Positions 28,344 to 32,357 of a DNA stretch of 64,000 nucleotides are shown here, in pieces (within the stretch, counting starts at the first letter, position 1; each line of letters starts with the position of its first letter). The DNA is from Rhodoferax koreense (lineage in GTDB: Bacteria; Pseudomonadota; Gammaproteobacteria; Burkholderiales; Burkholderiaceae_C), in NCBI RefSeq assembly GCF_001955695.1, contig NZ_CP019236.1, forward strand, positions 3,844,001 through 3,908,000. Direction: 5' to 3'. A program made the translations under genes and the position numbers. The notes under the pieces are model-generated. The model made no database searches and was not told the origin of the DNA. It was given only the letters and a program-made list of their open reading frames with translations.

Positions 28344-28593
28344 GAGGGGCTCCCAGGAGGTGGTCGGTGCAGATGGTGGCTGTCGCCGCTGGCATAGCAT
28401 GCGGGACCGAACGCGGGAAGGCCGACGGCCATTCCTGCAACACGCCCACCCCACACGCCCTGTCGGTTATACCCGCATCGGCTTCGCCACAATCGCCGGA
28501 AGTGGCGTCAGGACTGGATCTCCCGCGCGCTGCAGGCACATGGACAGCGTGAACGTTTTAACGGATATATTTCGAAAACGGAAACGAAATCAC

Positions 28594-28978
28594 GTTAGCC
28601 CTATGGATGCCCAGTCCACTCTCGCGGTAATCGAATACCTGGTGTCCCAATCTGCCGCTCGCGTTGGGAAGGTTGACGGCGAGCGTTCCGGGGTGGCTGA
28701 GGAGTACGTTGCAATCTTTGACGAGTTGGATTCGCTTACCGCAGACGAGTTCTCCGAGGTGCTTGCGATGTACCTGGTTGGCTCCAGTCGAGTGAAAGAC
28801 TTCGAGCAGGCGCGTGAGGTTGCAGTAGCTGCCAAGTTTTCTCCTTTGGAAGCCATGGCTCACGACATCAATCTTCACGTTGTGCTTGCCCGCGGCCTTG
28901 AAGCGTATCGTGATCATGTCCACAAGGGCTAACCCATCCTTGCAGCGGACCGCCTTTGGCAACCGCTGAAGTCAGACG
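28594..28978 (+). other. Integron gene cassette 1 (GTTAGCC core to attC)
   Basis: A core site G^TTAGCC at 28594-28600 is followed 2 bases later by the cassette gene ATG (28603). The gene's stop codon TAA lies inside the R'' core GGCTAAC (28927-28933), and GGCTAAC is the exact reverse complement of GTTAGCC, as required for a circularisable cassette. The cassette would span 28595-28978 (384 bases). The 50 bases left of the core are AT-rich and carry no attC-like hairpin, so they could be an attI remnant. No integrase gene is present in the window. Confidence 0.75.
28603..28932 (+). CDS. Gene-cassette protein of unknown function (109 aa)
   Basis: This 109-residue acidic, helical protein starts MDAQSTLAVIEYLV and includes FDELDSLTADEFSEVLAMYLVGSSRVKDFEQAREVA and HVVLARGLEAYRDHVHKG. 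The pattern faintly recalls DUF3775-type small domains, but I cannot confirm it. Base composition is clearly lower in GC than its neighbours. The ATG at 28603 is chosen because it lies 2 bases after the GTTAGCC cassette core and the stop codon is inside the attC R'' core; the frame is open further upstream (ATG 28540), but that would read through the core site. Cassette position suggests horizontally acquired accessory function. Confidence 0.7.
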   Translation: MDAQSTLAVIEYLVSQSAARVGKVDGERSGVAEEYVAIFDELDSLTADEFSEVLAMYLVGSSRVKDFEQAREVAVAAKFSPLEAMAHDINLHVVLARGLEAYRDHVHKG

Positions 28979-28984
28979 TTGAGG
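28927..28984 (+). repeat. attC site of cassette 1 (interrupted by IS at its 3' core)
   Basis: The order is R'' GGCTAAC (28927-28933), L'' TTGCAGCGG (28940-28948), a 14-base terminal region, L' CCGCTGAA (28963-28970) and R' GTTGAGG (28978-28984). L'' and L' are perfectly complementary if the G at 28942 is left out as an extrahelical base, the defining structural mark of attC sites. Length is 58 bases. The IS1182-family element begins at 28982, inside R', so R' is now formed partly by IS sequence. Confidence 0.85.
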
Positions 28985-30727
28985 CTGTAAAAAAACCTCC
29001 TGCGCCGTGCTGATCCAGTTGAATTGGCATCGCGCTTGCATGTTCATAAGCATGCCGCGCTACAAACCCCAAGAACGCCATAGCCTGCTGCTGCCGGTGG
29101 TGCTCAGTGAGCAGATCGTCCCAGGCACATTTGCCTTCGCACTGGACTACCTGGTCGATCACGAACTGGATCTGTCAGAGCTCGATGCCCGCTTCAGGAA
29201 CGACGAGGTGGGCGCCAGCGCCTACGACCCGCGCGTGATGCTCAAGGTTGTGCTGCTGGCCTACAGCCAGGGCGTGATCTCCAGCCGTGCCATCGAACGG
29301 GTTTGCCAGCGCGATGTGCAGTTCATCGCCATCGGAGGTGACAGCCAGCCCAGCCACGCGCACATCGCCAAGTTCGTCAGCACCCTGGGCGAGCAGATCA
29401 AGCCCTTGTTCGCGCAAGTGCTGATAACCTGCGACGCCCAGGGCCTGATCGGGCGCGAGATGTTCGCCATCGACGGCGTGAAGCTGCCAAGCAACGCCAG
29501 CAAGGAGCGCAGCGGCACCCACGAAGAACTGCGCCACCGCGCACAACGCCTGGACGAGGCCGCCGATCGCATCGTGGAGCTTCACCAGAGCCATGACAAC
29601 AGCACGTCGGAGCAACCCTTGGAGGCCAAACGCCAGGCCCGTATCGACGCTCTGCGCAAAGAGGCAGCGCGCACGCGGGAGTTTGTTGCCACCAGCGAGC
29701 CGCGCACCAACGCCAAGGGACAGGAACTCAAGGCCAACGTCACCGACCCCGAAAGCGCCAAGATGGCCACCAACAAGGGTGTGGTCCAGGGTTACGCCGC
29801 GCAGGCCGCTGTGGACAGTGCCCACCAGGTGATAGTGGCTGCCGATGTGATCGGCGCGGGCTCGGAGCAATCGATGCTGCTGCCCATGATCGAACAGAGT
29901 GCGCCGTACCGCGACGACACCACCCTGGTCACAGCCGATGCGGGCTACCACAGCGATGCCAACATGCAAGCGCTGATGCAACAGAACATCCCGGCGTTGA
30001 TCGCCGACCACCAGATGCGCCAACGCGATGAACGCTTCAAGGACCAAGGCAAACACAAAGCCAAGGGGGACGCGCTGTACGACAAGCAGCCTACGGGCAA
30101 TGGCAAGCCGATCCAACGTTTCAGGCCGCAGGACTTCGAGTTCCATGACGACAACACCGCGACCTGCCCGGCGGGAATGGCGCTCAGGAGCAACGGCAGC
30201 AAATACACCACGGCAACCGGCCAGCGATATCAGCTATATAACGCGCAGGCTGCGGACTGCCAGGAATGCGCTCTGCGCCATCAGTGCCTGAAAGACCCCA
30301 AGAGGGCACGCGGCAGACAGGTCACCCGGTTCGAGCCCAAAGCCAGAGACCCCAACCACCCCAGCGAGCGGATGAAAGGAGCCATCGACTCGGCCAAGGG
30401 GCGGCGCCTGTACAGCCAGCGCATAGGCACCGTGGAGCCGGTGTTCGGCAATATCCGGCACAACAAGTGGCTTACGCGGCTGAATCTGCGCGGGCGCGAG
30501 AAGGTCAACACGCAGTGGCATCTGTACTGCATGGTGCACAACATTGAGAAGCTGGCCAACCGTGGGTGGAGGCAGTGAGAAAGAGGCCGCGGGAAGCGGC
30601 TGCCAAGGGCACAATGGCGGTTCCGAAGGCTTCGGAACTCAGAGACAGTGCAGCTATGAAATTTCCGATCTTACAACGCGATGAATGCCCCGGCCAAAGC
30701 GCGCGGATTGGGGTTTTTGGTCAGCCT
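28982..30727 (+). mobile_element. IS1182-family insertion sequence with 5-bp target duplication
   Basis: Imperfect terminal inverted repeats start AGGCTGTAAAAAAACCTC at 28982 and, read inward from the right end, AGGCTGACCAAAAACCCC ending at 30727 (14 of 18 match). CGTTG directly precedes the left end (28977-28981) and directly follows the right end (30728-30732), consistent with a 5-base target duplication. The 1746-base length fits the IS1182 family. The transposase fills the interior. The insertion point is inside the R' core of the attC site. The exact ends are proposed from sequence alone. Confidence 0.75.
29052..30578 (+). CDS. IS1182-family transposase
   Basis: This 508-residue DDE transposase begins MPRYKPQERHSLLLPV and carries the family features: SEQIVPGTFAFALDYLVDHELDL, YDPRVMLKVVLLAYSQGV, DFAIDGVKLPSNASKE-like first Asp region, LVTADAGYHSD with the second Asp, Cys-rich DCQECALRHQCL, and the C-terminal YSQRIGTVEPVFGNIRHNK with the catalytic Glu. 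It appears full length and intact, so the element may still be active. An ATG at 29040 (MFIS) in frame is an alternative start. Coding strand is the same as the cassettes. Confidence 0.92.
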   Translation: MPRYKPQERHSLLLPVVLSEQIVPGTFAFALDYLVDHELDLSELDARFRNDEVGASAYDPRVMLKVVLLAYSQGVISSRAIERVCQRDVQFIAIGGDSQPSHAHIAKFVSTLGEQIKPLFAQVLITCDAQGLIGREMFAIDGVKLPSNASKERSGTHEELRHRAQRLDEAADRIVELHQSHDNSTSEQPLEAKRQARIDALRKEAARTREFVATSEPRTNAKGQELKANVTDPESAKMATNKGVVQGYAAQAAVDSAHQVIVAADVIGAGSEQSMLLPMIEQSAPYRDDTTLVTADAGYHSDANMQALMQQNIPALIADHQMRQRDERFKDQGKHKAKGDALYDKQPTGNGKPIQRFRPQDFEFHDDNTATCPAGMALRSNGSKYTTATGQRYQLYNAQAADCQECALRHQCLKDPKRARGRQVTRFEPKARDPNHPSERMKGAIDSAKGRRLYSQRIGTVEPVFGNIRHNKWLTRLNLRGREKVNTQWHLYCMVHNIEKLANRGWRQ

Positions 30728-30745
30728 CGTTGAGGCCGTTCAGAA

Positions 30746-31267
30746 ATGACCGAAACCGAGATTGATTCGCTAACACAAGTTCTGCTCCCAAACCCTGGGC
30801 GTGAACTCCTTCGGCATATGCACCATGCAGCGCAGGTCTCGGACTCGACACTGGCCATCTTGTACATAGACATTGATAACTTCAAACGATTTAATGGTCA
30901 CAACGGGCATTTACTAGGCGATGAAGTGTTAAAAGAACTTGCTACCCTTTTAAAGTCACAGCTAGACCCTAAACAAATAGTATTCCGTATAGCCGGTGAT
31001 GAGTTCGTTGTTATTCTTCCTGAAATTACGACGGAAGATGCAAAGTATTTAGCACAAACAATTTGTGATATCGCAAGAAGAAAATTAACCCCACCGCAAC
31101 CCACGCACTGTGGTGACAAACCCTGTCAGGGGCCAATCAAACTAACAGTTTCAATTGGTATTGCCACCATGCGACCCGATGAACGTAGTCATCTGCAGCT
31201 ATTGCAAGAAGCAGAGGACAAAATGTATGAGGCCAAAGAAGCTGGTCGTGGTCGTTATGTAATATGA
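30746..31267 (+). CDS. Minimal GGDEF-domain protein (probable diguanylate cyclase), cassette-borne
   Basis: This 173-residue protein is a single GGDEF domain with almost no N-terminal sensor: LYIDIDNFKRFNGHNGHLLGDEVL, FRIAGDEFVVILPE (AGDEF at 83-87, a variant still active in known cyclases), and GIATMRPDE. A typical inhibitory RxxD site is absent. The product would make cyclic di-GMP from two GTP, if active. GC content is far below the neighbourhood (AT-rich codons such as AAA, TTA). The ATG lies 11 bases after the restored attC core GTTGAGG, and an attC-like sequence follows the stop, so it reads as gene cassette 2, separated from cassette 1 by the insertion sequence. Confidence 0.88.
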   Translation: MTETEIDSLTQVLLPNPGRELLRHMHHAAQVSDSTLAILYIDIDNFKRFNGHNGHLLGDEVLKELATLLKSQLDPKQIVFRIAGDEFVVILPEITTEDAKYLAQTICDIARRKLTPPQPTHCGDKPCQGPIKLTVSIGIATMRPDERSHLQLLQEAEDKMYEAKEAGRGRYVI

Positions 31268-31271
31268 GAAC

Positions 31272-31335
31272 GTATAACTTTACGTTCAAGAGTGACGCCG
31301 CAGAGGCGCATCGCCCCTTGACTCCACGGTCTATA
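31272..31335 (+). repeat. attC-like site after the GGDEF cassette (degenerate)
   Basis: R''-like GTATAAC (31272-31278) lies 5 bases after the GGDEF stop, then an L''-like TTCAAGAG (31285-31292) that pairs with CCTTGA (31316-31321) when one A is left out, then GTCTATA (31329-31335) in the R' position, 6 bases before the next ATG. The invariant GTT of R' is GTC here, so recombination is probably impaired. Placement relative to both genes is exactly that of an attC. Confidence 0.5.
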
Positions 31336-31340
31336 GAATC

Positions 31341-31675
31341 ATGCGCTTCGCTCTTGCCACGTTAATTCTTGCAATAGCTCTGCCCGTTTGGGCGGCGGCC
31401 ACAGAGATTCCAATCATATTTCAGGGAAGTACAGCAAGACCTACCAGGTGCGAGATTACAGTGAGGATTGCTCTCGCACCGATGACGATCAATGCGGCCT
31501 GTTCGATGTCAGCGATGAAGTCGAGATTACCCCGTTGTCAAAATTTTCCGCAGCAGTTCGGATATTTATCGCTGCCGAAAATGAGCACAGTTGCACCCTG
31601 GTCGGTGTAGGAAAGTGGCAGCGCGATCGGCTCGTAGTCGAGCAACCGGCGGAACCCGGGGAGCTTGGTGTTTGA
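31341..31675 (+). pseudogene. Frameshifted small secreted-protein gene (cassette 3)
   Basis: A start ATG at 31341 opens a signal peptide (MRFALATLILAIALPVWAAA) in one frame. From about 31425 the conserved-looking remainder lies in a second frame: KTYQVRDYSEDCSRTDDDQCGLFDVSDEVEI and AENEHSCTLVGVGKWQRDRLVVEQPAE, ending at the TGA at 31673-31675. One frameshift near 31410-31425 separates them. Repaired, it gives a secreted protein of about 110 residues with paired Cys, a pattern like small lysozyme-inhibitor-like or other periplasmic proteins. I do not recognise the family. It follows the degenerate attC directly, as a cassette gene would. Confidence 0.65.
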
Positions 31676-31811
31676 ACCGTGTCAATTGAGTTTTCATCCG
31701 CCGGAATTTCCAGTCTTGACGGCGCACCTATGCAAATATGCGTGAGAAATTGCGGAGCGCGTGCATCGCTCGCAACCTATGACCTAAAACACATACGCGA
31801 GTCGCCATGAT

Positions 31812-31888
31812 GAGTGACCTTATATCGAGCGGACCGCTTCTGGCAGGCTCCGCCCGCGTCCAGCGGCCTCTCATCTCATGAGTTGAGC
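31812..31888 (+). repeat. attC-like remnant at the right end of the cassette island
   Basis: The block AGCGGACCGCTTCTGGCA (31828-31845) matches the left half of attC1 (AGCGGACCGCCTTTGGCA) at 16 of 18 positions, and GTTGAGC (31882-31888) fits the R' consensus GTTRRRY. The right half between them no longer pairs well with the left, so this is a remnant rather than a working site. The region 31676-31811 shows no gene I can support. Confidence 0.4.
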
Positions 31889-31931: not shown

Positions 31932-32357
31932 ATGCCTCCCACCGAAATCCAAGCCGGCCAGCTTCGCATCCGTTACCTCATCGACGGCTCGCCAACCGCG
32001 AGCCTAGGCATGTTCGAGCTCTCCGTCCCGCCGGGCTCCAACGTCCCGCCGCACCACAGCCACACCCACAACGAAGAAATCGTCTACGTGCTCGAAGGCA
32101 CGTTGCGCTACTCGGTGGGCGACGAAACGCGCGACCTCACACCCGGCGAAACCATGCAAACCCCCAAGGGCTCCGTGCACGGCTTCTCTAACCCGTTCGA
32201 GAGCGTCGCACGCGCGCTGATCACCCTGGCGCCCGACATCGGTCCCAAGTATTTCGAAGACGTCGCCGCCGTCATCAACGCGGGTGGTCCCCCAGACAAG
32301 GCGGCGCTGGTCGCCGTCATGGCGCGATACGGCCTGGTGCCGGCCGCCCCGAAGTAA
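31932..32357 (+). CDS. Cupin-domain protein
   Basis: This 141-residue single-cupin protein has the metal-binding motif PPHHSHTHNEEIVYVLEG and the second motif PGETMQTPKGSVHGFSN, forming the usual beta-barrel with three His and a Glu. Cupins of this type are often small dioxygenases, isomerases or sensors; none is specified. GGAAACGCCC precedes the ATG. It lies 33 bases upstream of the maleate-isomerase-like gene and may be co-transcribed with it. It is the first ordinary chromosomal gene after the cassette island. Confidence 0.88.
   Translation: MPPTEIQAGQLRIRYLIDGSPTASLGMFELSVPPGSNVPPHHSHTHNEEIVYVLEGTLRYSVGDETRDLTPGETMQTPKGSVHGFSNPFESVARALITLAPDIGPKYFEDVAAVINAGGPPDKAALVAVMARYGLVPAAPK

Follow-up and report, generated by a model that had tools for sequence, protein, structure and literature searches.

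A probable integron remnant in Rhodoferax koreense, split by an IS1182-family element whose lineage likely targets attC

This article concerns a 64,000-nucleotide stretch of the Rhodoferax koreense chromosome (contig NZ_CP019236.1, positions 3,844,001 to 3,908,000), which we call the window and number from its first letter, and a small island of integron gene cassettes within it. We hold with good confidence that the island is an integron remnant without an integrase, and that the first of its attC recombination sites, attC1, is interrupted at its GTT by an insertion sequence (IS) of an IS1182 lineage that likely targets attC. Targeting is our proposal, read from the positions at which copies of the element lie; the lineage is likely one that specialises in invading integrons. 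A preliminary description, made by a model from the letters of the window, had seen a stranded, partly decayed cassette array. The attC sites without a nearby integrase agree with that, but it said too little, having overlooked the attI-like sequence at the head of the array and the IS in attC1.

An insertion sequence in an attC core

The central features are as follows.

28927 to 28984, + strand: attC1 (covariance model R1, 47 bits, E 1.5e-9; top of an independent scan); the final four letters, GAGG, already form the left end of the IS
28978 to 28980, + strand: GTT, left target triplet and core of R', read directly
28981 to 30728, + strand: IS1182-family IS, 1748 bp, with ends GAGGCTGT...TCAGCCTC, placed by comparing copies
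29052 to 30578, + strand: transposase of DDE type, 508 amino acids (NF033551, 293.1 bits against a cut-off of 270; PF13751, PF05598, PF01609)
30729 to 30731, + strand: GTT, right target triplet, read directly; it starts the core GTTGAGG before cassette 2

The IS splits the array between cassettes 1 and 2, in the core GTT of attC1, which its left end touches exactly. The site had already been recognised as a 58-base attC whose L'' and L' arms pair around one extra G, with the TAA of cassette 1 lying within GGCTAAC (28927-28933); direct reading gives the same stop codon, and the R1 score bears out the attC. R1 was built from 23 attC sites in other genomes, in stretches beside integron integrases. 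It took in 23 of 28 scanner hits, and by coordinates none of the 23 stands at an IS junction. The arms of these sites pair in 88% of cells, although the covariation is partly built in because the scanner requires paired arms. Run over the window with default filters at E<=10, R1 matched 28927-28984 and 31812-31888 and nothing else, and a pattern scan of both strands of the 64 kb ranked 28927-28984 highest among attC-like sites.

The element belongs to the IS1182 family by its transposase, which scores above the NF033551 cut-off, and by its terminal inverted repeats: the window ends share their seven leading letters and then agree in part, and in relatives 13-16 of 16 letters agree. Only the window copy was found in the genome (40 of 153 candidates scored).

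The unit acts like an IS rather than a cassette. Were it a cassette that the integron integrase mobilises at G^TT, and not an element shifted by its own transposase, its left junction, GTTGAGG, would look much as it does, resembling a cassette boundary, and the unit would stand in line with the cassettes, as it also does. A cassette would, though, bring its own 3' attC. R1 with filters off finds none at the right end (near 30728), and none is listed at that end among the R1 matches in forward-type loci. In the reverse copies L130, L131 and L132 the ends are unchanged and the two flanking triplets again agree with each other, IS1182 elements outside integrons share the end GAGGCTGT, and two copies in genome G1027 lie outside any recognisable attC. 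We regard the cassette explanation as very improbable.

Where the other copies sit

Copies were sought by IS DNA or by transposase, never by attC, and their ends were located by GA..CTGT upstream and ACAG..TC downstream of the transposase, leaving the flank letters unused. With R. koreense itself included each time, copies turned up at three ranks: family (22 of 399 genomes), order (16 of 399) and class (19 of 369). Three plasmid records carry them at E<=1e-30, and a close-match search of plasmids with the IS DNA gave none. The total is at least 76 copies, the window's and 75 others after removal of one duplicate; the searches scored few candidates per genome, so copy counts are lower bounds. 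L124 duplicates L106 and does not figure in the flank table; for L119 the right end read from that copy itself took the place of the automatic one.

With the window included, the left flank is GTT in 47 of 54 readable copies (AAC in 5, another triplet in 2) and the right flank GTT in 39 of 47 (AAC in 4, another in 4). Both ends can be read in 37 copies, and 33 of these show the same triplet on the two sides (30 GTT/GTT, 3 AAC/AAC; the other 4 do not). C precedes GTT in 43 of 45 cases, and A or G follows the right-hand GTT in 38 of 39. Copies that are 99.9-100% identical within a genome (2 in G310, 4 in G1027) share no sequence within 400 bp on either side.

Where the attC-side end can be read (51 copies), R1 places the end of an attC right at the junction 35 times; chance would give about 0.0009 per junction. 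At 19 bits or more the count is 30 of 51. The attC sequences on the left differ between copies. Another attC, scoring 19 bits or more, occurs in 34 of 75 loci, and in G013, G020 and G099 an intI stands within 1.7-3.2 kb of the copies. Over all loci 112 R1 hits are listed, two of them at the window locus (L095); another ten of the 112 were not entered, eight at 15 bits or less (including one of 10 bits at the L160 junction) and two, of 22.7 and 19.5 bits, that a contig end truncates. A score that uses no model reaches 6 or more at 16 of 51 junctions; for GTT sites the rate is 0.17% among the 1203 that the window has beyond the island and 1.1% among the 5745 within the same loci. This score misses several sites that R1 calls, and R1 is what we relied on.

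Several observations pull the other way. Five of the 35 junction matches are weak (13.7-16 bits), and at 16 of the 51 readable junctions no R1 match is entered. Two of these 16 are cut by contig ends (L146, L157) and seven are attC-like by eye (L111, L137, L149, L156, L160, L168, L170); the other seven show no attC even by eye (L106, L116, L132, L147, L163, L166, L172). Two of the four G1027 copies occupy apparently non-attC ACGTT sites. RCGTTR is enriched at all ends, making part of the preference one of sequence, and in 20 copies the letters of the right flank pair with R'' no more than permuted letters do (p 0.45).

The element can, then, use a bare ACGTT-like site. Might it target RCGTTR and nothing more, landing in attC because cassette arrays are tolerant of insertion, with attC structure irrelevant? 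The letters around GTT and the two G1027 copies speak for this. RCGTTR, however, occurs 93 times in the 64 kb, counting both strands, and hardly explains by itself why 30 or more of the 51 junctions fall in attC; tolerance should be just as great at intergenic sites elsewhere, and known IS1182 members choose inverted repeats, as passages of PMC5678879 report. We think this explanation unlikely. The four G1027 copies (L147, L163, L168, L169) are nearly identical; two lie in attC-like sites, the other two apparently elsewhere, and the set is a natural comparison of target choice.

Orientation is lopsided as well. The transposase reads along the cassettes in 47 copies and against them in 5. AAC on at least one side marks the reverse-orientation copies L114, L121, L130, L131, L132 and L172, and four of them (L121, L130, L131, L132) make up one branch of the tree.

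That tree sets 39 clade members apart from five outgroup proteins with support 99, two of the outgroup branches being very long; five near-copies (L117, L124, L163, L168, L169) and proteins shorter than 430 amino acids were left out of it. Seven clade members score 265-308 bits with NF033551, where two ordinary members of the family reach 431 and 448; of six clade members compared with the cut-off, four lie above it and two just below. As a control we took six IS1182 elements outside the clade (22-26% identity or similar), and their 25,377 bases hold no attC match. Element ends are clear in two of these six loci; both carry the same end, GAGGCTGT, and their flanks are AGTC/AGTC in Variovorax and a palindrome in Phocaeicola. 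With the same ends and other targets in ordinary IS1182 elements, GAGGCTGT-type ends look like a trait of the family, and the choice of target like one of the clade.

How might such an element work? The DDE transposase would recognise attC, probably as a hairpin or palindrome together with an RCGTTRRRY core. Recognition of the hairpin is the part we infer, in line with IS1272, a member of the same family that selects inverted repeats according to the portion of PMC5678879 that we cite. The transposase would cut with a 3-base stagger around GTT and insert the element, mostly with its own reading direction along that of the cassettes, and repair of the gaps would double the GTT. The GAGG with which the IS starts would then give the upstream attC a near-consensus R', GTTGAGG, so that the site is probably still usable by an integrase, and the IS and the next cassette could move as one. 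The attC sites to the left of the copies do end in GTTGAGG, close to GTTRRRY, and their R1 scores stay good, up to 63.1 bits. More tentatively, and as something we would rate below an even chance, a class-wide IS1182-attC lineage may have specialised on folded attC, landing on the crossover triplet; with R' rebuilt by GAGG, the composite cassette would remain mobile by integrase, and the lineage would spread by its transposase and its hosts' integrons together.

The array, its attI copy and the missing integrase

The remaining features of the island are these.

28547 to 28597, + strand: attI-like sequence, the left part up to the crossover core, with no adjoining intI (90% over 51 bp to G000:C1:1116476-1116526)
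28594 to 28600, + strand: core GTTAGCC, junction of attI and cassette 1, read directly and aligned with the attI of the other locus
28603 to 28932, + strand: cassette 1 gene, open reading frame (ORF) of 109 amino acids, predicted all-helical
30746 to 31267, + strand: cassette 2 gene, stand-alone GGDEF domain of 173 amino acids (PF00990, E 3e-33)
31272 to 31334, + strand: candidate decayed attC2, by eye alone; no R1 match with filters off
31341 to 31675, + strand: cassette 3 gene, apparently frameshifted (frames 31341-31610 and 31388-31675 overlap in the ORF list)
31812 to 31888, + strand: attC3, weakened (R1 21.4 bits, E 0.0039 in 64 kb, E 0.354 genome-wide)

At the head of the array the core GTTAGCC at 28594-28600 is followed by CT and the ATG at 28603, just as first described. 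The stretch up to this core, 28547-28597, matches the attI that lies directly upstream of a broken intI 2.75 Mb away (90% identity over 51 bp), and on that likeness an attI appears to head the array. No intact integrase stands beside it. As had been stated, the 64 kb hold no intI, and the whole genome has no match to TIGR02249 over the cut-off; there is only a broken N-terminal piece at 1.116 Mb. The array in this genome is probably frozen, since no intact integrase was found in it.

That piece belongs to a second locus, whose order is ruvA, broken intI, attI, cassettes and pabB, the outer two being what we take the genes to be from their translations. Its intI retains about the first 109 profile positions, split over two frames, and the remainder was not found. 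A direct R1 search there gives two attC, of 56.5 and 30.3 bits. The genome-wide R1 search, with 150 of 9750 candidates scored, returned the island and this second locus at 1.117 Mb and missed the 30.3-bit site, so that its counts are lower bounds. Between the broken intI and the attI (together G000:C1:1116035-1116526) there is, by eye, a LexA-box-like sequence, CTGTATTTAAAAAACAG, which exceeds the consensus by one base.

Most simply, given the attI copy at its head, the window array is what remains of a second integron that lost its own intI. Rearrangement could instead have moved the attI copy and the array from the ruvA locus. The near-identity of the attI at two loci of one genome would fit such a move, as would the absence of both loci from the nearest relative, G001 (flavin reductase 87% identical). 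Against it, a DNA search finds no match between the attI copies past the 51 bp, and the cassettes differ; we judge the move somewhat unlikely. Further afield, the attI pattern has no match in the genome contig set, and among 120 genomes attI DNA was found in the R. koreense genome itself and in no other.

In G001, a draft genome that is 73% complete, fewer than 200 bp separate the flavin reductase gene from the gene that in the window follows a cupin gene; at that place G001 lacks attI, cassettes, IS and cupin gene, and it has no integron behind ruvA. Nothing past the flavin reductase gene aligned in six other members of the genus, which are uninformative on the border. Comparison with G001 gives a suggestive right border for the insert, but 39 of 500 shuffles do equally well. 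The cupin gene (31932-32357) lies between the array and the next gene. Its protein was not found at E<=1e-20 in the other 59 of 60 genomes and gives no help with the right border.

A cluster of attC sites lacking integrase (CALIN) is defined by at least two attC within about 4 kb and no intI nearby. The island has 28927-28984 and the moderate 31812-31888, 2.8 kb apart, in a window without intI. Of the three attC positions first proposed, R1 matches two, the outer pair, attC1 securely and attC3 moderately, and attC3, the remnant claimed at 31812-31888, is likely the right edge of the array. The middle one, after the GGDEF gene (around 31272-31334), is unproven, with no R1 match even unfiltered; by eye it has an R''-like GTATAAC and arms GTTCAAG/CTTGAC, but its R' is spoiled. 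Folded as plain DNA the attC stretches are unremarkable (z -1.9 to 0.1), so support for the island's attC sites comes from the attC pattern and not from stability. Rfam over 26-34 kb gave one chance-level match and no attC family.

Low G+C across the island, another early claim, is plain in the GGDEF cassette (45.7%) and the attI stretch (38.3%) and less so in cassette 1 (56.5%), cassette 3 (53.7%) and the 1748-bp IS (62.0%), set in surroundings of about 66%.

As for what the cassettes encode, the protein of cassette 1 belongs to no Pfam or NCBIfam family, and its structure model (predicted local distance difference test score 85) has no Protein Data Bank match at E<=0.001. It has six relatives, 41-76% identical, on contigs of 603-2475 bases; a search for the cassette in plasmids led nowhere, and none of 128 pattern matches in the genome contig set was confirmed. 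Cassette 2, with an AGDEF motif, is possibly a cassette-borne synthase of cyclic di-GMP, to judge by its predicted domain. Cassette 3, too, is without a Pfam or NCBIfam family.

Known systems and what the finding means

Two kinds of invader are already known from integrons, IS1111-attC elements and group II introns. The window element would share with the IS1111-attC group (ISPst6 and ISKpn4, of the IS110 superfamily) the targeting of cassette attC sites, which the cited part of PMC11187229 describes along with a DEDD transposase. Unlike that group it has DDE-type domains (its Pfam matches are PF13751, PF05598 and PF01609 only), terminal repeats and a GTT duplication. Group IIC-attC introns are likewise mobile elements tied to integrons, an association reported in PMC7923331; here, in contrast, there is no reverse transcriptase or intron, and apart from the transposase no large gene lies between cassettes 1 and 2.

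With its own family (IS1272, ISKpn6) the element has in common a transposase over the NCBIfam cut-off and the GAGGCTGT ends of two outgroup members, and some IS1182 members select palindromes, by the account excerpted from PMC5678879. It differs from ordinary members in forming a separate clade near the edge of the NF033551 model. It differs from IS1272 too, which in the same excerpt replaces its target repeat without duplication: the window element doubles GTT and leaves attC in place, complete on one side. The island as a whole resembles a CALIN, or an integron without intI, in having attC sites with no neighbouring integrase, and departs from a CALIN in keeping an attI-like sequence at its head. 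Among the Creative Commons-licensed papers of PubMed Central that our searches listed, no title or abstract deals with IS1182 elements targeting attC, and full texts may hold passing mentions; the novelty of an IS1182-attC lineage is provisional.

If the proposal is true, attC targeting would have arisen independently in a DDE element of another family, one that again and again finds the crossover triplet of unrelated attC sites across the Gammaproteobacteria. Such elements could account for part of the transposases so often listed among cassette genes. They would also offer a clean test case for a DDE transposase reading a folded hairpin, and a second route by which cassette arrays get broken or carried along.

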